A program made the translations under genes and the position numbers. This document shows positions 10,811-50,485 of a stretch of DNA of 64,000 bases, one piece after another. Below the pieces are notes generated by a model. It searched no databases. It had not been told where the DNA came from and was given only the letters and a program-made list of their open reading frames with translations. The stretch is from Thiomonas delicata (GTDB lineage: Bacteria > Pseudomonadota > Gammaproteobacteria > Burkholderiales > Burkholderiaceae_C). The stretch spans positions 1,114,503 through 1,178,502 of the forward strand of contig NZ_LT592171.1 of assembly GCF_900088825.1 (NCBI RefSeq), written 5' to 3'. Numbering within the stretch: position 1 is the first letter of the stretch; the number at the start of each line of letters is the position of its first letter.

Positions 10811-11557
10811 TCAGACCGTCCCCACCTCCAGCGCATCGAACCAGTTGATGAAGCGCTGCACATTGGCGCCGGTGTAGATGGCGCCGTGCTGCGGGCAGAG
10901 GAAGTCGATATCGAGCTTGGACACGCGTTCGCACCACTTGCGCTTGGCCTCGTTCGATGGCATCCAGCGCTTGTGGAAATACTCCGCGTGCTTGATGTGG
11001 GCGTCGAACGCGGCGGCGCTGTCGAGGTCGCGCCGCTCGACGTAGGCGGAATGCCCGGCGGGCAGCAGCGCGGAGCCGACATCCCCGGAGAACAGCACCT
11101 TGGCCTTCGGGTCGTAGAGATGGAAATTGGCCGAGGAGTGCAGGTAATGCGCCGGAATGATCTGCAGCCGGAGCGACCCCACGAGCAGTTCGCCGCCTTC
11201 GTCGGGAATGCCCTGGATGTTGGCGTCCAGCGCCCCGTAGTGGCGTATGAAGCCGACCCAGAGCTTGGCGGTGTGCCAGGTGATGGCCGGGTTGCAGGCG
11301 TTCCACAGCGGCAGGCTGGAGCCGACGTCGGGGTCCTGGTGGCTGACAAAGGCGCTCTCGATCGACGAGGGAGGCAGCGCATCCATCAGCGCGGCGAACA
11401 CCTGGGGAAAGACCTCGAAACCACCCGGATCGCAGAGCAGCGTATGCCCGTCGACCTGCAGGGCGTAGACGTTGGAGTCGACGACGCGAGGCTCGCTCTG
11501 GTCGTAGACGACGAACCAGTGGTGCTGCCCCTCGGTATAGAACTTGTCGGTTTTCAT
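10811..11557 (-). CDS. MBL-fold diiron protein, ODP-like oxygen sensor
   Basis: A 248-residue protein of the metallo-beta-lactamase fold, close to flavodiiron proteins but lacking the flavodoxin domain. Likely metal ligands are His73, Asp75 and Asp77 in SHQDPDVG, then His137 or His140 (PAHYLHS), Asp159 (FSGDVG) and His224 (CPQHGAIY). Oxygen-binding diiron proteins (ODP) of this kind are known as chemotaxis sensors in Treponema denticola, where ODP is tied to CheA. The gene sits inside the chemotaxis operon, overlapping the preceding receptor-like gene by four bases (ATGA) and followed by a PAS-MCP. A plain hydrolase is less likely in that setting. Oxygen binding is inferred from family and context. 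Confidence 0.85.
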
Positions 11558-12177
11558 GAAAGGACCTTTTCGATCTGATCTGTGTAGGTGCGCAGCAGGT
11601 TGCGAACCTGCACCACGGCCTTGTCCATATCGGAGGAGACCTGGGCGAGGGCGGCGCGCGCATCGCCCTTGAGGGCTGCTTCGATGCGGCCGTTGACCAC
11701 CACGTACTCCAGTTCGGCCACCACGCTCTCGAAGCGGGCGAGCGCCTGGCGCAAGCGGGTGCTGGCGCGCCGGCCCTGTTCGGTGCGGGTTTCCAACTGC
11801 ATCTGGCGTTCTTCGATGGCGCGCTGCAGCCCCGGAGCAAACTGGCGGGCGGTCTCGGGCAGGTGCTCGAGCTTGTCGATCCGGTAGCTGTCGAGCAGGG
11901 TCTGCATGAAGCCGAGCATCAGCGGATGGATGGCCTGCTGCATCTCGTCGGCGGCGGTCTGCAGTTGCTGCGCGCCCTCACGGAACGACTGCGCGACCAC
12001 GCCGTAGCCGGCCAGATCCTTGCCGTGGCGCTTCACCAGGACCTGGGCGTTGAGGGCCTTGCGGTCGATTTCGCGCAGGTATCGCCGCAACTGGCCTTGA
12101 AAGGAGAAGGTCACGTCGGCAACGCCGACGAAGCCGCCGCAGAGTTCGGTGGGTGAGACCCGTGTGTCGTATGTCAT
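11554..12177 (-). CDS. Truncated, degenerate chemoreceptor-like protein
   Basis: A 207-residue helical protein. Residues 41-66 line up without gaps with the MCP hairpin tip: Asn43, Ala44, Arg50, Gly52, Gly59, Val60, Val61 and Ala62 keep the pattern of [12 protein letters not shown] and [10 protein letters not shown]. Several tip residues are changed, including the central glutamate, which is Leu47. Only about 40 residues precede the tip, so the usual long descending helix is missing. The C-terminal part (100-205) is helical and rich in Q, E and R. It is coupled by ATGA to the ODP-like gene and follows cheA by 24 bases. It may be an adaptor that lets ODP act on the receptor array. This is inference. 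Confidence 0.8.
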
Positions 12178-36605: not shown

Positions 36606-36952
36606 GTGTCATCCCCGAAAGACACGCCATGCCACGGCCACAGGCGCCGGCTCTCTAGGCAAACCGACTTGGCCCCCGCCGCAGGGCGTGGCAGGTCTCC
36701 CCCAGCGGCAAGGCCTTGCCGCTGGGGCGGCAAGGCCTTGTCCCCCCGGGCGCCGCGGTCTGCCAGCCATCAACCGGCCGGGCAGGTTCGATGCAAGGCG
36801 ATTGGCGCCCACTGCTGGACGTGCGCGCCGCTGTCCGTCGCGTGGTACGGACCTTGCTGCTGAAAGGCGGGCGGTACACCCGTCGCGAGGCCGTCTCGCG
36901 CGGTGCGGGCACCGCCAGCCGCCGCAAGCGGACAACGTTGGAGAGATTTTTC
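36606..36952 (+). repeat. Intergenic region between flgB and flgA with a 28-bp perfect palindrome
   Basis: This stretch has no credible gene. At 36700-36727 there is a perfect 28-bp palindrome made of CCCCAGCGGCAAGG and its reverse complement. A 14-base piece of it (GCGGCAAGGCCTTG) is repeated directly at 36727-36740, so a second hairpin (36709-36720 with 36729-36740) can form instead. No T-run follows. It could be an intergenic repeat, a boundary element or a protein site. No promoter for flgA could be picked out with confidence. Confidence 0.7.
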
Positions 36953-37726
36953 GTGGCATCGGCTCGGTACGGTTTCGCAACACGCCATGGACACCGGCAC
37001 GCCCTGGCGCGGCATCTGGCCCGGTGGGCCGCCCTCGTGCTGCTGGCCGCACCGTTCGGCCTCAGCCTGGCCGCCGCGAAACAAGTCACCGCCTGGGAGT
37101 CGGGTGACAGCATTCGCCAGGTGGTCGAACAGTTCGTGCGCGGCCGTCTGCCCGAGGCCTCGCGCGATGCGCGCGTCACCGTCCAGGGGCCGGCGGCCGG
37201 TTTGCATTTCCCGCGCTGCGCCCGCCTGCAGGCGCAGAACTTCGGGGCCGCCAATCCCTTCGGCGCGCAAACCGTGGAGGTCAGTTGCGCGGCGCCGCAG
37301 GCGTGGTCGCTGTATCTGCCCGTGCAAGTGGCCATGCCGCAAGGCGCGGTGGTGGCGGCACGGGCGCTTTCCGCCGGGCATGTGCTGGCCGAGGCAGACC
37401 TGGCCGTGGTGCAACGCGACCTCGCCAGCCTGCCGGCTGGCGCGCTGACCGCGCCGGCTGCCGCCGTCGGCCAGGTACTGCAGTACAGCGTCGCGGCCGG
37501 GCAGAGCATCACGCAAAGCATGCTCGCCGGACCACAACTTGTTCATGACGGCCAGTCCGTCTCGCTCGTGGCGCAGGGGCAGGGCGTACGTCTGGTGGCG
37601 CTGGGCAAGGCCATGGAAAACGGCCGCCAAGGCCAGACCATCCTGGCACGTAATGTTCAATCCGGTCGGGTGGTCAGCGGCGTGGTCGACGCTTCGGGAC
37701 AAATCCTGGTGGCGATGCAGCCGTGA
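36953..37726 (+). CDS. flgA: Flagellar P-ring assembly chaperone FlgA
   Basis: FlgA is the periplasmic chaperone for P-ring assembly. The chosen GTG at 36953 has GGAG nine bases upstream and gives 257 residues, starting with a basic stretch and a signal peptide (WAALVLLAAPFGLSLAAA). Upstream extension is arginine-rich and non-homologous. The C-terminal SAF-type domain (about 135-255) has VVAARALSAGHVLAEADLAVV and ends GRVVSGVVDASGQILVAM, as in the family. It is divergent from flgB. Confidence 0.93.
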   Translation: MASARYGFATRHGHRHALARHLARWAALVLLAAPFGLSLAAAKQVTAWESGDSIRQVVEQFVRGRLPEASRDARVTVQGPAAGLHFPRCARLQAQNFGAANPFGAQTVEVSCAAPQAWSLYLPVQVAMPQGAVVAARALSAGHVLAEADLAVVQRDLASLPAGALTAPAAAVGQVLQYSVAAGQSITQSMLAGPQLVHDGQSVSLVAQGQGVRLVALGKAMENGRQGQTILARNVQSGRVVSGVVDASGQILVAMQP

Positions 37727-37900: not shown

Positions 37901-37916
37901 TGGCACCCGGCTTGCT
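37901..37916 (+). promoter_or_regulatory. Sigma-54 promoter for the GGDEF/HPt-CheW/CheW/receptor-like cassette
   Basis: TGGCACCCGGCTTGCT keeps GG and GC ten bases apart and fits TGGCAC-N5-TTGCW at nearly every position. It lies 36 bases before the GGDEF gene and shows that the cassette is expressed with the class of flagellar structural genes. Confidence 0.85.
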
Positions 37917-37951
37917 TATCCTCGGCGTCCATCCCCGAGGAGCTGCGCACC

Positions 37952-38938
37952 ATGTCCGCCCTGGCTGCCGAATACGTCATCCGAAATTCGCATTCCTTCC
38001 AAGGTTTGTCCGCCGAAGGGCCTGCAAGATCCGTCCTTGGCGACGCAAAGCGCGCCACCGAGCAAGTCACGCAACAGTCGGACGCGATGCGGGACGCCCG
38101 GAGCCTGCTGACCTCCTGGCTGCAGCGCTGCCTGCGTCAGGGCGCCTACCGCGACCATCCTCGCGCCGTCGCCGCCCTGCCGGTGGAGGCCATCGCGCAG
38201 CGCTTGCGGCAGGCCACGGATCTGCCCGACGGCGCCCCCGATGTGGGGAACATGCAAGCCGAGCTGATGGCGCAATTCGCACAGATCGACAAGCTGGTCA
38301 CGCAATTCGCTGCGGCATGCAAATCGCAGCCCGAGACCCTGTGTCTTTATGACGAACTGGTGGAACGAGGACTGGCGGCCCTGCAGCAGTTGGCCGACCT
38401 TGAAGTCGCCCTGAGCGTGCACAAGGCCGGGCTGGACTTGCTGACCGGTTTGCCGGGCCGTCGCGCGTTGCAACAACGCCTGCTTTCGGAACATGCGCGT
38501 TTGCGGCGCCACGCCCAACCCTGCACGCTGGTGCTGATCGACCTGGACCGGCTCAAGCCTGTGAACGACCGTTATGGCCACATGGTCGGGGATGCGTATC
38601 TGGCGGCGTTCGCCGATGTCTTGCGCGGCGCTTTGCGCCCCTACGACACCGCGTTCCGCTACGGAGGCGACGAATTCATCCTGTGTCTGCCGCAAGCCGG
38701 CGTCGAGCAGGCCACCGCAGTAATCGGCCGCTTGCGCGAGCGCTTGGCCGAGCAGGCCCTGCTGTGCATCCAGGGGCGGTTCCTGCATGCGCGGTTCAGC
38801 GCGGGCGTCGCCGCCTTGGAGGTCGGGAAGACCATCGCGCAATCCCTGGAGGAGGCCGACGCCAGACTCTATGAAGCCAAGGCGTGCGTAAGTGCAGCAC
38901 CCGGCCCGGCGTGCGACGACGGTCCGTGCGACGCATGA
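37952..38938 (+). CDS. Diguanylate cyclase (GGDEF) with helical N-terminal sensor
   Basis: This enzyme should make c-di-GMP from two GTP. The protein has 328 residues. The C-terminal GGDEF domain (about 160-310) starts GLDLLTGLPGRRAL, has IDLDRLKPVNDRYGH and the active-site motif RYGGDEFI, with an inhibitory I-site RPYD five residues upstream. All key residues are present. The N-terminal 150 residues are helical and unrecognised, with no membrane helix, so the enzyme is cytoplasmic. It is the first gene of a sigma-54-driven cassette followed by chemotaxis-like genes, which suggests its activity is linked to a receptor complex. Confidence 0.92.
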   Translation: MSALAAEYVIRNSHSFQGLSAEGPARSVLGDAKRATEQVTQQSDAMRDARSLLTSWLQRCLRQGAYRDHPRAVAALPVEAIAQRLRQATDLPDGAPDVGNMQAELMAQFAQIDKLVTQFAAACKSQPETLCLYDELVERGLAALQQLADLEVALSVHKAGLDLLTGLPGRRALQQRLLSEHARLRRHAQPCTLVLIDLDRLKPVNDRYGHMVGDAYLAAFADVLRGALRPYDTAFRYGGDEFILCLPQAGVEQATAVIGRLRERLAEQALLCIQGRFLHARFSAGVAALEVGKTIAQSLEEADARLYEAKACVSAAPGPACDDGPCDA

Positions 38939-39026
38939 GTGCGCGCCAGCAGGCTGGCCTCGAGGCTTGAGCCATGCAGATCTGGCCGATGGCGCCCGGG
39001 CCTCCCCGCCTGGGCTGGGATAGGCG

Positions 39027-40460
39027 ATGGAGCGCATGGTGAATCTCGCCCAGGCCACGCCCGCCGAGTTGATGGCAGCCTTCACGCAGGACGCCACGGC
39101 CTTTCTCGCCGTATTCGAGCGGTCCTTGCGCGAGGCAAGCAGCGCCGCGGAGACGCTGCAGGCGCTTGGGCACGCAGGCGAGGCTTTGCGCGGCATCCGG
39201 ATCGGCGCCGAGTTTCTCGGCCTGGACGCGATGTCCGCGCTTTGCCGCCAGGGCGAACAAGAGCTGCTGCGGCAGTTGCCGCAAGTCGGTGGCGGGCGGC
39301 CGGTGCAGTGGCCCTTGCTGGAGCAGGTCGTCGCCGGTTTGCGCCGCCAGTTGCGCGCCGCCTCCGCGCCCGCGCTTCCCGCGCGCGCAAAGCCCCCCAT
39401 GCAGGCTGCTGACGCCCAGGAGCACAAGATTGTGGAACCGCCCGCAAGCGCGTCCGGCGAACGGCCGCAAGCGCCCGGCGCAGCCTTGCTGGCGCCGGAC
39501 GCCGATGCCCTCCGGCCTGCCGAAGGGGTGGAGAACGCCGTGCCGCAGCCGGCGAGTTTCGGCAAGCCCGACGCCACGCTCCCCGACCCGGCCGAGCCCG
39601 TTGCGCCTTCCGAACCGCCCCTTGCTTCGGCACCGGACCTGGCGCCGCAACCCCGGCTGGCCGTGGAGGCGAATGTCACGGCCGGGCCCCCACCGCCCCC
39701 GGCTGGGCCTGCGATGCTCGCCCTGGGCGAACCCCTGCTGCAGCGCCTGTCCGAGATTCCGGATTTGTTACGCGAACAGATCGAGAGCTGGCGATCGCTG
39801 CGAGAAGCCTTGGAAGCCGACCGCCTTGCGCGCGCCCCGGCGAACGGCGCGCCGGAGCCGCCGCGGCCGGACACTGCGGGCGCACCGGCCGGCGACACGG
39901 CCGTCCCGCAAGGCGATGCGTCCGGGACGGCGCCCGGCATCGCACCCGCAGCGCCATCGCGCGATGACGACATGCCGGCGGCGCCGGGCGAAAGCGGGCC
40001 TGCCGCGGCCGGGCACGCGCAGCCCTGGAACGCGCGCATCGAGGTGCGCCTGGCCCGCCTGGGACACTGGTTACTCGCGCTTCCGGCGACGAAGGTGCTC
40101 GGCCTGGTTCCGCGCGATGGCCAGGACTGGCAACTGCCGCGCGGCGACAGACTCCTGCTGACGGAGGAGGGCGCGGTGCCGGTGCTGACACTGGATGGGG
40201 ACTGGGGTGGGCCGGCGGAGGCCGAGGGCTGCAGCCTGCTGCTGCAGCACGGCGGACGGTTTTTCGCCTTGCGCGTCGACGCGTGCCTGCCGGCGCGGAC
40301 CTTGCACTTCTGGTCGATCCCGCCCCAGATCGGCGGCCGCCACGGCATCGAGGCGGCCGCCGTTTTGCCGAGGCAGTCTGGCCATGACATGGCCTTGCTG
40401 CTGGCCCTGCCGTCCTTGGCCGGCATGTTGGGAGCGGCCGAGGAATGCCGTGGGCCATGA
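39027..40460 (+). CDS. HPt-like/CheW-like fusion protein without phospho-histidine
   Basis: A 477-residue protein with an unusual architecture. Residues about 10-110 resemble a CheA HPt domain: GIRIGAEFLGLDAM lines up without gaps with TIKGSAGLFGLDGI of the CheA at 1071-3290. The phosphorylatable His is replaced by Arg55. A long Pro/Ala-rich linker follows (about 115-330). The last 140 residues (about 335-470) resemble a CheW domain (WLLALPATKVLGLVPRD, FFALRVDACLPART). The kinase, dimerisation and ATPase domains are absent. It may couple receptors without phosphotransfer. It overlaps the next gene by four bases. Function unknown. Confidence 0.78.
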   Translation: MERMVNLAQATPAELMAAFTQDATAFLAVFERSLREASSAAETLQALGHAGEALRGIRIGAEFLGLDAMSALCRQGEQELLRQLPQVGGGRPVQWPLLEQVVAGLRRQLRAASAPALPARAKPPMQAADAQEHKIVEPPASASGERPQAPGAALLAPDADALRPAEGVENAVPQPASFGKPDATLPDPAEPVAPSEPPLASAPDLAPQPRLAVEANVTAGPPPPPAGPAMLALGEPLLQRLSEIPDLLREQIESWRSLREALEADRLARAPANGAPEPPRPDTAGAPAGDTAVPQGDASGTAPGIAPAAPSRDDDMPAAPGESGPAAAGHAQPWNARIEVRLARLGHWLLALPATKVLGLVPRDGQDWQLPRGDRLLLTEEGAVPVLTLDGDWGGPAEAEGCSLLLQHGGRFFALRVDACLPARTLHFWSIPPQIGGRHGIEAAAVLPRQSGHDMALLLALPSLAGMLGAAEECRGP

Positions 40461-41056
40461 GCATGCCTAAGCTGGCCGGCATCCCCGTGCCGGCAGACGC
40501 GCGCGACTGGCCGACGGGCGACGGCTTCGGCGCGTCGTTTTCCAGGACGGCGAACTGGCTCGCATTCGAGGTGGATGGCCAAGCCTGCGCCGTCGACAGC
40601 CGGCAGGTCCGATCGGTTTTGCGCCCGCCGGGCATGGCCCCGCTGCCGGGGCGCGACGCGCGCTGTCCAGGCCTGCTCGCCTGGCACGACACCGCCCTGG
40701 TCGTGCTGGATCTGGGGGCCTGCCTGGGCCTGCGACCGAGCCTGGGGCAGGCCGCGTCCCGCCTCCTGGTGTGTCATGGGCATGAGCGGGAGCAGGCCTG
40801 GGGTTTGCTGGTGGATGCCGTGCGCGGGTTCCAGCGCATCGCCTCTCCGGAGCCAGGCTGGATCGCCGTGCGTCCCGGCCTGCCGCCTCCCTGGAACGCC
40901 ATGTTCGCCCTGCTGCCGACACCGGGCGGCGTGAGCGGCGAGGTCTGCGCCATGCTGCATGTGCAAACTTTGTGGGAAGGCTGCCTGAGCCTCATCTCGA
41001 ACCATCCCGCAGCGGCAGGCCCGAGCCTGCCGCATCATCCGAAGGACGTCCCATGA
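40457..41056 (+). CDS. cheW: Divergent CheW-like coupling protein
   Basis: A 199-residue protein with a single CheW-like domain: NWLAFEVDGQACAVDSRQVRSVL near residue 32, GLLAWHDTALVVLDLGACLGL, then GLLVDAVRGFQRI. It is more divergent than a normal CheW. The ATG at 40457 overlaps the preceding stop (ATGA), and its own stop overlaps the next start the same way, so three proteins of this cassette are made in a coupled fashion. It is the only stand-alone CheW in the window. Confidence 0.82.
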   Translation: MSMPKLAGIPVPADARDWPTGDGFGASFSRTANWLAFEVDGQACAVDSRQVRSVLRPPGMAPLPGRDARCPGLLAWHDTALVVLDLGACLGLRPSLGQAASRLLVCHGHEREQAWGLLVDAVRGFQRIASPEPGWIAVRPGLPPPWNAMFALLPTPGGVSGEVCAMLHVQTLWEGCLSLISNHPAAAGPSLPHHPKDVP

Positions 41057-42291
41057 AAATCTCTCCCATGCGGTCCCTGTTCCTGATGTGGCTGCTTTGC
41101 AGCGCCTGGATGCTGCTGGTGTGGTGGCTGGGGCATCACGCGGCCACGAATTTGTCCGCAGGGCCAAGCCTTCCGGCCAAGGTCGCCGCCACCTGGTCCC
41201 TGGCCGGGATCGCGCTATGGGGCGGGATGGTGCTGACGCTGTTCCTCGCGCTCTATCTTGCCCTGGCCATCAAGATCGACCTGGGCCGCCTTCGCCTCGC
41301 CACCCGGGACTTGGCGCGCGGCGCCAGCGCCGCGCTGCCCGACATGGCGCCGGAGTGGCTGGGGTTGCTGGACGACGTGCGCAACGCCGCGCGCCGCCAG
41401 CAACAAGAACTCGCCATCTCGCGCCAGGAACTGGACGACTGCGAGCAGCGCCTGCTGGCCGAGCAGGCGCGCGCGGCAGCGGCCCAGGCAAGCGCCGAGA
41501 GCGCGGCCCTGCGCTTGCGCCAAGCGCAGGCCGATGTCCGGCGTGGGCTCGCCGCCATGCCCGTGGTGCCGGATGCAGTTCAGGAGACTCGCCACGAACG
41601 GCTCAGGATCTTGCTCCAGCCCGCTCTGGCCCGGCTCGCCCAGGGGCTCGAAAACCTGGATTCGACACTGCAGCCCTTGTCGGATCTGCTGGATGCCGCG
41701 GCCGCGAAGCCCGCGGCCCAGGCCGCAGCGGCGGCGCAATCCGGGCCGGAGTCACGGCCCGAGGCAAACGCCTTGCGCCTGGTGGACGAAGCGGGACGCT
41801 TGGCGGAGTCCTTGCAGCTCTTGTGCCTGAACTTTCGCCTCGCCCTGGAGCGCCTCGGCCCGGAGCTTGGCGAAGATCATCCTGAGCTGGACACGGTCAT
41901 CCAGGACCTCGACCCCATGTGCGCCGACGCCATGGCTCTGCAGGAGGCCGCGCGCAGCGCGCAAGACGCGATCGCAAACCGCACCGATGCGCCGAAGGCG
42001 AGCACCGCGCCGTCTTCATGGCCCCTCTCCGGCGACGAAACACGCCGCATCCTGGCCGAAGTCAGGCAGGCCGCCCGCGACGAAATGCAGGCCCTGGCGG
42101 AGGCCCTGCGCCAGGGGCGGCAGGGACTCGAGCTGGCGCAAGGGGAGCCGGACCGAACGCAGGGCGCCGGCGAACCGCAAGCCAGGGCGCTGCTGGAAGG
42201 CCTGGATCTCGCCCTGAAACAGGCGTTGGATGGGCTGGCGTTGGATGGATCGCGCCAGGGCGGGCAGGGCCGCACCGGAGGGCAGGGCTAA
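41053..42291 (+). CDS. Membrane protein with degenerate chemoreceptor-like tip
   Basis: A 412-residue inner-membrane protein. It has two membrane helices (about 8-27 and 47-72) separated by a short periplasmic loop of about 20 residues. A long alpha-helical, Q/E/R/A-rich cytoplasmic region follows. Residues 257-269 (LLCLNFRLALERL) resemble the MCP tip [13 protein letters not shown], keeping Asn260, Arg267 and Gly269 at the same spacing, but most tip residues and any methylation pattern are lost. Its position after the HPt-CheW and CheW genes, coupled by ATGA, suggests it is their receptor. The tiny loop argues against direct ligand sensing. Function is unproven. Confidence 0.75.
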   Translation: MKISPMRSLFLMWLLCSAWMLLVWWLGHHAATNLSAGPSLPAKVAATWSLAGIALWGGMVLTLFLALYLALAIKIDLGRLRLATRDLARGASAALPDMAPEWLGLLDDVRNAARRQQQELAISRQELDDCEQRLLAEQARAAAAQASAESAALRLRQAQADVRRGLAAMPVVPDAVQETRHERLRILLQPALARLAQGLENLDSTLQPLSDLLDAAAAKPAAQAAAAAQSGPESRPEANALRLVDEAGRLAESLQLLCLNFRLALERLGPELGEDHPELDTVIQDLDPMCADAMALQEAARSAQDAIANRTDAPKASTAPSSWPLSGDETRRILAEVRQAARDEMQALAEALRQGRQGLELAQGEPDRTQGAGEPQARALLEGLDLALKQALDGLALDGSRQGGQGRTGGQG

Positions 42292-42315
42292 AGTCTGGCC
42301 GCGCCGTGTCGTCAA
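42289..42315 (+). promoter_or_regulatory. Predicted sigma-28 promoter for fliC
   Basis: The -35 TAAAGTCT and -10 GTCGTCAA are separated by 11 bases. The -35 shares its TAA with the stop codon of the preceding gene. It leaves a leader of about 63 bases before fliC. Confidence 0.65.
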
Positions 42316-42385: not shown

Positions 42386-43861
42386 ATGGCCATTTCCGGC
42401 ATCATCAACACCAACATCAATGCGTTGAACACGCTGAACGCCCTCGGCGGCACGTCGAGCAGCCTCAGCACCTACATCCAGCAACTCTCCACCGGCAAGC
42501 AGATCAACGGCCCCGCCGACAACCCCGCCGGCTACGCCATCGCCCAGCGCTTCCAGACCCAGATCAACGGCCTGAACCAGGCGGTGTCGAACGGCAACCA
42601 GGCCGTTTCGCTCGTGCAAACCGCCACCGGCGCGCTGCAGAACGAAACCAACCTGCTGCAGCAGATCCGCACCATCGCCGTCCAGTCGGCCAACGGTTCC
42701 AACACCTCGTCGGACCGGGCTTCCCTGCAGGGCGTGGTGTCGCAATTGCTGGCGCAGGTGCAGACCATCGCCACGCAAACCCAGTTCAACGGTCAGAACA
42801 TCCTCGACGGCAGCTTCTCCGGCCAGCAATTCCAGGTCGGCGCCAACGCCAACCAGGTGATCAACGTCTCGATCTCCAATTCGCAGGCCAACGCGATCGG
42901 TGTCAACACCATCGGCACCAGCGGCACGGTGTATGCGGGCGCCAGCGGCTCGGTGACGTCCAATGGCTACGGTTCGGCCTACACCATCAGCGCCGGCGCC
43001 GGCAATTTCACCGCCGGCAACGTGCTGATCTCCGGTTCGGCCGGCGCCAGCGGTGTCGCGGTCACCGCCGATGAATCGGCCGCGAACATCGCCGCCTCGT
43101 TCAACGCGATCACCCAGCAAACCGGCGTCAGCGCCTCGGCCAACACCAGCGTGGCCTTCACCGTGACCACCGGTTCGTTCTCCTTCACCCTGAGCAACGG
43201 CACCTCCGGCAGCCCGACCAACACCGTCAACATCTCGGCCAACGTCACCAGCACCGACCCGACCGGTTTGAGCGGACTGGTCGCGTCGATCAACAACAGC
43301 ACGGCGCAAACCGGCGTCTCGGCCAGCGTCAATTCCAGCAACCAGGTCGTGCTGACCCAGAACCAGGGCCAGAACATCCTGATTTCCGGCTTCGGCGGCA
43401 GCGGAACCCTGCAGGCGGGCAGTGCGGCAGCCATCACCAGCGGCGCAGGAACCGCACTGGTGCAGGGCTTCGTCCAACTGCAATCCACGCAAGGCTATTC
43501 GCTGAGCGGCGGCACCAACATCGGGTTGTCGAACATCAGCTCGCTGCAGGCCTCCTCGACCGTGAACGTGTCCACGGTGCAGGGCGCGAATGAAGCCATC
43601 GCCATCATCGACAACGCCATCAACGCCCTGAACCAGCAAGGCGGCGCGCTCGGTGCCATTCAGAACCGGATCCAGGCTTCGGTGCAGAACTCGCAGACCA
43701 CCGCGACCAATCTGCAGGCAGCCCAGTCCGTGGTGCAGGACGCGAACATCGCCCAGGCGACGACGCAGCTGTCCAAGTACCAGATCCTGCAGCAGGCCGG
43801 CATCTCGACCCTGGCGCAAGCCAATGCCCTGCAGCAGAGTTATCTGAAGCTCCTGCCGTAA
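42386..43861 (+). CDS. fliC: Flagellin FliC
   Basis: FliC is the filament subunit. It has 491 residues, starting MAISGIINTNINALNTLNAL after a good ribosome site (TAGGAG). The conserved N-terminal helices include QLSTGKQINGPADNPAGYAI and RTIAVQSANGSNTSSDR. The D2/D3 region (about 170-390) is rich in Ser, Thr and Asn, with many possible O-glycosylation sites. The C-terminal helix ends QQAGISTLAQANALQQSYLKLL, as expected. It is the only flagellin gene in the window. Confidence 0.97.
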   Translation: MAISGIINTNINALNTLNALGGTSSSLSTYIQQLSTGKQINGPADNPAGYAIAQRFQTQINGLNQAVSNGNQAVSLVQTATGALQNETNLLQQIRTIAVQSANGSNTSSDRASLQGVVSQLLAQVQTIATQTQFNGQNILDGSFSGQQFQVGANANQVINVSISNSQANAIGVNTIGTSGTVYAGASGSVTSNGYGSAYTISAGAGNFTAGNVLISGSAGASGVAVTADESAANIAASFNAITQQTGVSASANTSVAFTVTTGSFSFTLSNGTSGSPTNTVNISANVTSTDPTGLSGLVASINNSTAQTGVSASVNSSNQVVLTQNQGQNILISGFGGSGTLQAGSAAAITSGAGTALVQGFVQLQSTQGYSLSGGTNIGLSNISSLQASSTVNVSTVQGANEAIAIIDNAINALNQQGGALGAIQNRIQASVQNSQTTATNLQAAQSVVQDANIAQATTQLSKYQILQQAGISTLAQANALQQSYLKLLP

Positions 43862-49417: not shown

Positions 49418-50485
49418 ATGAGCGGATCCACTTTGCAAATCGACGAGACAACGACGCTCGATCCCCAACTTCTGGGCGACAGCCCAGCCGTGGTGGCGTT
49501 GCGCGCGCTCATCCGGCGCGTCGCCGCCACCGACAGCACGGTGCTGATTCAGGGCGAATCCGGAACGGGCAAGGAACTGGTTGCGCGGCTGCTGCACGCC
49601 TGGTCGCCCAGGGCTTTCCGCCCGTTCGTCGCCGTCAACTGCGGCGCGATTCCGGGCGAGTTGATGGAAAGCGAACTGTTCGGCCACGAACGCGGCGCGT
49701 TCACGGGCGCGCAAAGCGCGCGCAAGGGCCGCTTCGAACTGGCGGGACGGGGCACGCTGTTTCTCGACGAGATCGCCGAGATGAGTCCTGCCCTGCAGGT
49801 CAAGATCCTGCGTGTCTTGCAAGAGCGGTGTTTCGAACGGGTCGGGGGCTCGGAGACGATCCAGGCTCCGGCGCGCATCGTCGCCGCCACCCACCGCGAC
49901 CTCGAGCAGCAGATCCAGCTCGGCCGGTTTCGCGAAGACCTGTTCTACAGGCTGCATGTCGTGCCGATCCAGATCCCGCCGCTGCGCACGCGCGGCGACG
50001 ACATCCTCCTGCTTGCCGAACAAACGCTGCGGCGGCTGGATGCCTCGGGACTGGGCGTCATCCGCCTGGGTGACGGCGTCGAGCGCGCGCTGCTTGACTA
50101 CCACTGGCCGGGCAATGTGCGCGAACTGCAAAACCTGATGGAGCGCCTGGTCATCATGCACGCGGGAGCCACGGTCCATGTGCGCGATCTCCCCGCGAAA
50201 ATGCGCGCGGAAACCAATCCGGGCATCCCGGCGGCCGATTCGCCCTCCGACGCAGATGACGGACTGCAGGATCTGATGCGATCGGTGGCGGAGCCCTCCG
50301 ACCCGCTTCTGCCGCAGCAGGGCCTTGACCTTCGTGCCTACCTCGAGCGCATCGAACGTTCGCTCATCGAGCAGGCGCTCGCGGCCAGCGGCCATGTGAT
50401 CGCGCATGCTGCCGGAAAGCTGGGCTTGCGGCGCACGACCCTGGTCGAAAAAATCAGGAAATACGGCCTGCGCGCGGAAACCTGA
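49418..50485 (+). CDS. Sigma-54-dependent activator, FleQ-like without receiver domain
   Basis: A 355-residue sigma-54 activator, probably the master regulator of the flagellar cascade. The AAA+ domain starts at about residue 18. It has Walker A GESGTGKE (46-53), the sigma-54 contact loop GAFTGA (93-98) and the Walker B region LFLDEIAEM. The C-terminal helix-turn-helix, [19 protein letters not shown], closely resembles that of FleQ. The usual N-terminal regulatory domain of about 130 residues is missing, so activity must be controlled by level, by c-di-GMP at the AAA+ domain, or by a partner such as FleN. No sigma-54 promoter is seen before it. Confidence 0.9.

Follow-up and report, generated by a model that had tools for sequence, protein, structure and literature searches.

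The 64,000-nucleotide stretch of Thiomonas delicata DNA analyzed here (contig NZ_LT592171.1; hereafter the window) carries four co-directional genes, G1 to G4, between flgA (36866..37726, +) and fliC (42386..43861, +; identified by its flagellin sequence and conserved position). We tentatively read this cassette as a sigma-54-controlled accessory module of the flagellar chemosensory array, which would enter the array in the manner of Vibrio ParP and is sometimes accompanied by a diguanylate cyclase. G1 (37952..38938, +), the optional member, is predicted to encode this cyclase, with a helical N-terminal part followed by a GGDEF domain; G2 (39027..40460, +) encodes a kinase-less CheA-like protein with a P1-like domain, a variable linker, and a P5-like domain; G3 (40457..41056, +) encodes CheW; and G4 (41053..42291, +) encodes a putative membrane protein with two N-terminal hydrophobic stretches followed by long helices. 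Rings of P5 and CheW make up chemosensory arrays, and the entry and placement of extra proteins have been worked out in few instances, ParP being one; a kinase-less P1-P5 protein would test which parts of CheA suffice for array entry. Judging from their sequences, the parts of the cassette are of known kinds while their combination appears to be new, and no description of a P1-P5 protein or of this cassette was found among the listed titles and abstract openings of the open-licence PubMed Central (PMC) literature.

A first-pass annotation of the window had placed the four genes behind one strong -24/-12 site, and both the coordinates and the strength of this site were confirmed. The putative promoter, TGGCACCCGGCTTGC (37901..37915, +), has the form TGGCAC-N5-TTGC, which is the sigma-54 consensus at -24/-12, and its score (14 of a maximum of 14.5 in a scan with simple weights) was the highest among 127,970 window positions on both strands. 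In a sample of 28 genomes of the genus group containing Thiomonas sp. FB-6, on which the locus counts below are also based, the best site ahead of the first cassette gene scored 13 or 14 in 16 of 16 readable loci, including the 4 loci without a cyclase. Sigma-54 would switch the cassette on together with the flagellum, and activator domains for this factor are found in two window proteins, encoded at 49418 and 50646. A second sigma-54-like site lies upstream of flgB (36605, -; 13.5 of 14.5), which suggests that the cassette may share control with the flg genes.

The ATGA overlaps that had been noted for the last three genes are both real, one being shared by the G2 stop and the G3 start (40457-40460) and the other by the G3 stop and the G4 start (41053-41056). 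The four-base overlap was kept in 15/15 loci for G3/G4 and in 11/15 for G2/G3, the remaining G2/G3 pairs being 5 bases apart (two), overlapping further (one), or sharing one base (one). The linkage of the four genes is weaker than had been noted at G1, which a gap of 88 bases parts from G2 in the window. In genome G019 (L088:7236-8417, -), G2 and G3 form a single reading frame, which is still open where the contig ends, and the G4 copy has diverged.

Regarding G2, its Pfam matches to Hpt (E 0.0041) and CheW (E 0.27) are both under the family cut-offs, and its predicted structure consists of a P1-like four-helix domain at residues 12-113, a linker helix at residues 228-269, and a P5-like domain at residues 335-473, with pLDDT values lower than 50 over residues 118-137, 139-234, and 273-330, which point to a disordered linker. 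This linker is rich in proline and acidic residues and variable in length, and it accounts for most of the variation in G2, which ranges from 433 to 911 residues among 13 sequences. The linkers of the L083 and L085 proteins (829 and 911 residues) are made of degenerate acidic repeats of the VxEEPVAE type, and this pair also gave the highest ratio of nonsynonymous to synonymous substitution (dN/dS) of the set, 0.83. The P5 identity is supported by the predicted fold, with a marginal sequence profile, and the P1 identity rests on a sequence relationship; comparisons with PDB profiles mainly returned matches to the low-complexity linker. No match to the P3-P4 core (H-kinase_dim and HATPase_c) was found in G2 up to E 1 with Pfam, the same library having detected both families in both CheAs of the window, and no P2 domain was found. 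A phospho-site His was absent at either candidate position in 18/18 G2 sequences, 17 of which carry Glu 52 and Arg 55, while the L080 sequence has Arg and Gly. Which of the two positions opposes the His depends on the register, and an H-to-E change at the phospho-site was rejected because the profile alignment sets Arg 55, not Glu 52, opposite it. Unconserved His residues occur nearby, at residue 49 of the window protein and of two relatives, and three residues after Arg 55 in G019.

G2 is best read as P1 and P5 of CheA, in the right order, on a disordered linker without P2 to P4. The first-pass annotation had described a dead HPt domain without a kinase core, in agreement with these results, and a generic fusion of HPt to CheW, to which the reading as P1 plus P5 is preferred, the P5 part resting on its predicted fold. 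Hpt domains without the His occur inside CheA, and a kinase-less P1-P5 protein is not named in the available part of the source reporting them (PMC10782961). ParP of Vibrio is reported to have an N-terminal domain that binds ParC, followed by a proline-rich linker and by a P5-like (AIF) domain, the last of which enters the core unit of the array through contacts with receptor tips and CheA (PMC5706961). G2 resembles ParP in having an N-terminal domain, a long proline-rich linker, a C-terminal P5/CheW-like domain, and no kinase core; unlike ParP, it has a P1-like N-terminal domain, its gene lies between flgA and fliC, and its own CheW, a membrane protein, and an optional cyclase accompany it. 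By analogy, the P5-like domain of G2 would slot into CheA/CheW rings, and the P1-like domain, which has no phosphate acceptor, may act as a handle for docking, borne by the long and flexible linker.

The same domain composition may also be expected of a dominant-negative CheA, because a P5-like fold without kinase domains or a phosphate acceptor could replace CheA in the rings, lower the kinase density, and set the gain of the array, the cyclase then being a side matter. A promoter site of its own would permit separate dosing of such an inhibitor or diluent; however, this role leaves unexplained the membrane protein G4 and the separate CheW that are co-encoded with G2 in the loci read, and we regard it as improbable.

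The identification of G3 as CheW in the first-pass annotation was borne out, since it matched the CheW family (PF01584) with an E value of 3.3e-15 and 56.4 bits against a cut-off of 23.5, and 0/100 shuffled sequences matched the profile equally well. Unlike a typical CheW, G3 has N- and C-terminal extensions and is encoded apart from the che clusters, and it may be a dedicated CheW that joins G2 to the receptors.

The hydrophobic stretches of G4 start near residues 5-10 and 46-62, with none after residue 90, and no Pfam family exceeded its cut-off. A structural model of low confidence (pTM 0.35) shows long helices with a hairpin turn at approximately residues 273-276, close to an LNFRLxLER segment at residues 259-267; LNFRL and ER around this hairpin were invariant in 16/16 close orthologues, and three diverged copies retain Q, N, and LER. 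The tip segment aligned in register with LLALN of the receptors, the methyl-accepting chemotaxis proteins (MCPs), by hhalign (E 0.045). Since 2 of 150 shuffles were equal in this comparison, and since two full-length comparisons of G4 sets placed the alignment elsewhere (with 4 and 2 of 150 shuffles equally good), the receptor tip of G4 is to be regarded as a lead. MCPsignal (PF00015) was found in none of 5 G4 proteins, in scans to E 1 for the window protein and to E 10 for those of L072, L088, L091, and L134 (partial), a range in which HMMER filters drop most weak matches. Foldseek and VIA mainly returned generic helical bundles, with MCP models at E 0.04 and 0.6, and PDB profiles mainly returned coiled coils; no significant MCP homology was obtained by single-sequence hhalign, Pfam, Foldseek, VIA, or shuffle tests. 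G4 is similar to MCPs in its membrane anchor, its helical cytoplasmic part, and an LLxLN-like segment near the predicted hairpin turn, whereas HAMP and MCPsignal matches are absent and LER replaces the IEAAR of receptors. The earlier description of a membrane protein with an MCP-like tip is retained in its first part, while the tip is suggestive only and lacks statistical support. The assembly would be anchored in the membrane by G4, the hairpin of which may touch G3 or G2.

A different interpretation of these components is that G2, G3, and G4 form a membrane assembly of their own without CheA, in which G4 stands in for the receptor, G3 and the P5 domain of G2 form the rings, and G1 provides the output. 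The scaffold parts are encoded in one operon with the overlaps described above, G2 shows neither kinase domains nor a phospho-His, and G4 combines a predicted hairpin with an LLxLN-like segment. However, two full-length CheA kinases are encoded in the same window, receptor homology in G4 is not significant, and 4 of 18 readable loci have no cyclase and, hence, no known output, and we consider such an assembly to be unlikely. In a more elaborate form, kinase-free rings of a pseudo-CheA, CheW, and a minimal membrane protein at the flagellated pole would gate the cyclase by conformation alone, and signals of the array would thus be passed on to c-di-GMP (cyclic diguanylate) with no phosphate transfer; we regard this as quite improbable. 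Considering the two CheAs of the window together with the 7 CheW-domain matches and 15 MCPsignal matches (12 over the cut-off) of the genome, an accessory module of the array is the simplest reading, and the cassette need not work alone. The first-pass view of a stripped chemosensory complex was appropriate as to the absence of a kinase and would mislead if understood as a stand-alone complex.

Regarding G1, its GGDEF domain matched Pfam with an E value of 3.6e-37, and the protein carries the GGDEF motif plus RxxD upstream, the latter being the rule for an inhibitory site. It is predicted from this active site to be a diguanylate cyclase. Among NCBIfam families, G1 matched PRK09894 best, over residues 54 onward, and we take this family to be DgcZ/YdeH; the score of 170.7 bits fell short of the cut-off of 256, no Pfam match to the zinc-binding CZB domain was found in G1, and the PDB match to YdeH was limited to the GGDEF part and the preceding helix (profile positions 134-314). 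G1 was present in 14 of the 18 loci with a readable flgA-G2 space, from which genomes G008 and G016 were excluded as broken at this space, and 13 of these 14 orthologues have GGDEF, with GGDEC in G013. In G005, G011, G022, and G024, G1 was absent at the locus, to which this observation is confined, and the flgA-G2 space is only approximately 300-350 bases. In a tree of G3 and G4, genomes G011, G022, and G024 grouped together with a support of 0.99 and the placement of G005 was unsupported (0.08), and thus one or two losses of the cyclase are possible. The output of cyclic diguanylate (c-di-GMP), which had been proposed as part of the complex, finds no support as an essential part of it, because these four loci keep G2, G3, G4, and the promoter without the cyclase, and one more has GGDEC. 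The cyclase would then be an optional client, the output of which was lost in some lineages while the scaffold was kept; where present, G1 would be produced together with the scaffold and probably tethered to it, thereby supplying c-di-GMP near the flagellum.

The cyclase may instead be a mere neighbor that shares the promoter and sets c-di-GMP for the flagellar regulon without contact with the scaffold, which would be in keeping with its disappearance from the 4 loci, with the GGDEC of G013, and with the 88-base gap before G2 as against the tight overlaps downstream. We regard this as rather unlikely because 13 of 18 loci keep GGDEF at this position, with the shared promoter on one side and G2 on the other, and because the dN/dS of G1 was 0.13-0.38 in five pairs, as estimated roughly by NG86. 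In the Wsp system, chemosensory parts are linked to a diguanylate cyclase via a kinase and a receiver-cyclase; unlike Wsp, the cassette encodes neither. The Pch (DipA) phosphodiesterase of Pseudomonas aeruginosa needs CheA for its polar location and activity, the adaptor reportedly being unknown (PMC3861689). A c-di-GMP enzyme tied to polar chemosensory machinery is common to Pch and the reading of the cassette as an array module, whereas Pch is a phosphodiesterase and the enzyme here is a predicted cyclase encoded alongside candidate adaptors. A cyclase of this kind, absent at the same site in related species, offers a ready comparison.

Among the 28 genomes, a flagellar marker was found in 20 (flgA in 19, fliD in 16, and fliC in 2, G008 and G016, of the 10 in which it was looked for), and the genomes with any cassette gene were the same 20. 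The 8 genomes without these markers had no match to a cassette gene. G2 and G3 were each found in 18 genomes, and G4 in 16 by searches and in three more (G019, G016, and G008, the last partial) by reading the space before fliC; since these diverged copies escaped the G4 searches, other misses are possible. In 12 of 12 loci where a single contig carries both flgA and fliC, G2, G3, and G4 lay between them in this order, and, thus, the genes are found together in the genus and not scattered singly. Genome G018 keeps open reading frames (ORFs) resembling flhA, flhF, flhG, and fliA by eye, for which reason its flg-fli region and the cassette may be missing from the assembly; CheA2, one of the CheA kinases, is also retained in G012, G003, and G017.

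The four-gene order, which the first-pass annotation had suggested looking for in other Burkholderiales, was not seen beyond the genus. A pattern scan with the G3 alignment returned 13 loci, all carrying the genus cassette (one from Thiomonas sp. FB-6, one from a Thiomonas metagenome-assembled genome, and 11 from other metagenome-assembled genomes), and a corresponding scan for G4 returned none. A single G4 protein had no match outside the genus among 60 genomes, and a G4 profile run on 399 genomes of the order, with at most approximately four candidates scored per genome, matched, besides its own genome, only two partial sequences weakly (E 7e-4 and 9e-4, covering 40 and 76 of the 355 positions), which were taken as chance and not as true homologues. 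These searches suggest restriction to the genus for G4, the only cassette protein of which the profile was run on other genera.

The genes of the cassette diverge markedly, the G2, G3, and G4 proteins being 43-60% identical to their G013 orthologues as compared with 97% for FlgC and 94% for FliC. Taken together with the resemblance of G2 to a CheA with its middle removed, this divergence might be attributed to the decay of a former chemosensory operon. However, open frames, the G3/G4 overlaps, and the promoter are kept in readable loci, and dN/dS was lower than 1 in 22/22 comparisons (0.37-0.83 in 5 pairs for G2, 0.10-0.54 in 6 for G3, and 0.17-0.45 in 6 for G4, besides the G1 pairs given above), and a decaying remnant is, therefore, very improbable.

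In the chemotaxis cluster of the window, a 207-residue protein (11554-12177, -) is encoded just after CheA2 and matched MCPsignal over 44 residues with an E value of 0.00012, under the cut-off. It may be a small receptor-tip-like protein, as suggested by its sequence, and was not detectably related to G4. L127 and L128 have a similar ORF after CheA2, and two copies each are present in G022 and G024. The same cluster contains an ODP-family protein of the metallo-beta-lactamase fold (10811-11557, -; E 9.4e-64), which we presume may sense oxygen in aerotaxis. Two CheA2-side clusters, comprising the 207-residue protein, ODP, and CheV, seem to be present in each of G022 and G024 (L154, L155, L157, and L158). 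A search for CheA2 in these two genomes only found a pilus-type kinase; a loss of the flagellar CheA, from which persistence of the cassette in the absence of CheA would have followed, was rejected because the contigs with the post-CheA2 genes all end at an identical position within the 207-residue gene, and this common break point, with two copies per genome, makes the missing CheA2 look like an assembly gap.

The end of the cassette is marked by a sigma-28-like fliC promoter, TAAAGTCT-N11-GTCGTCAA (42289..42315, +), which shares the highest score in the window (12 of 16) with two other positions; in 18/18 loci, the strongest such site in the G4-fliC space scored 11-13 of 16. The TAA stop codon of G4 is also the start of this promoter in the window, and in 7 of 18 loci the G4 stop falls on TAAA.

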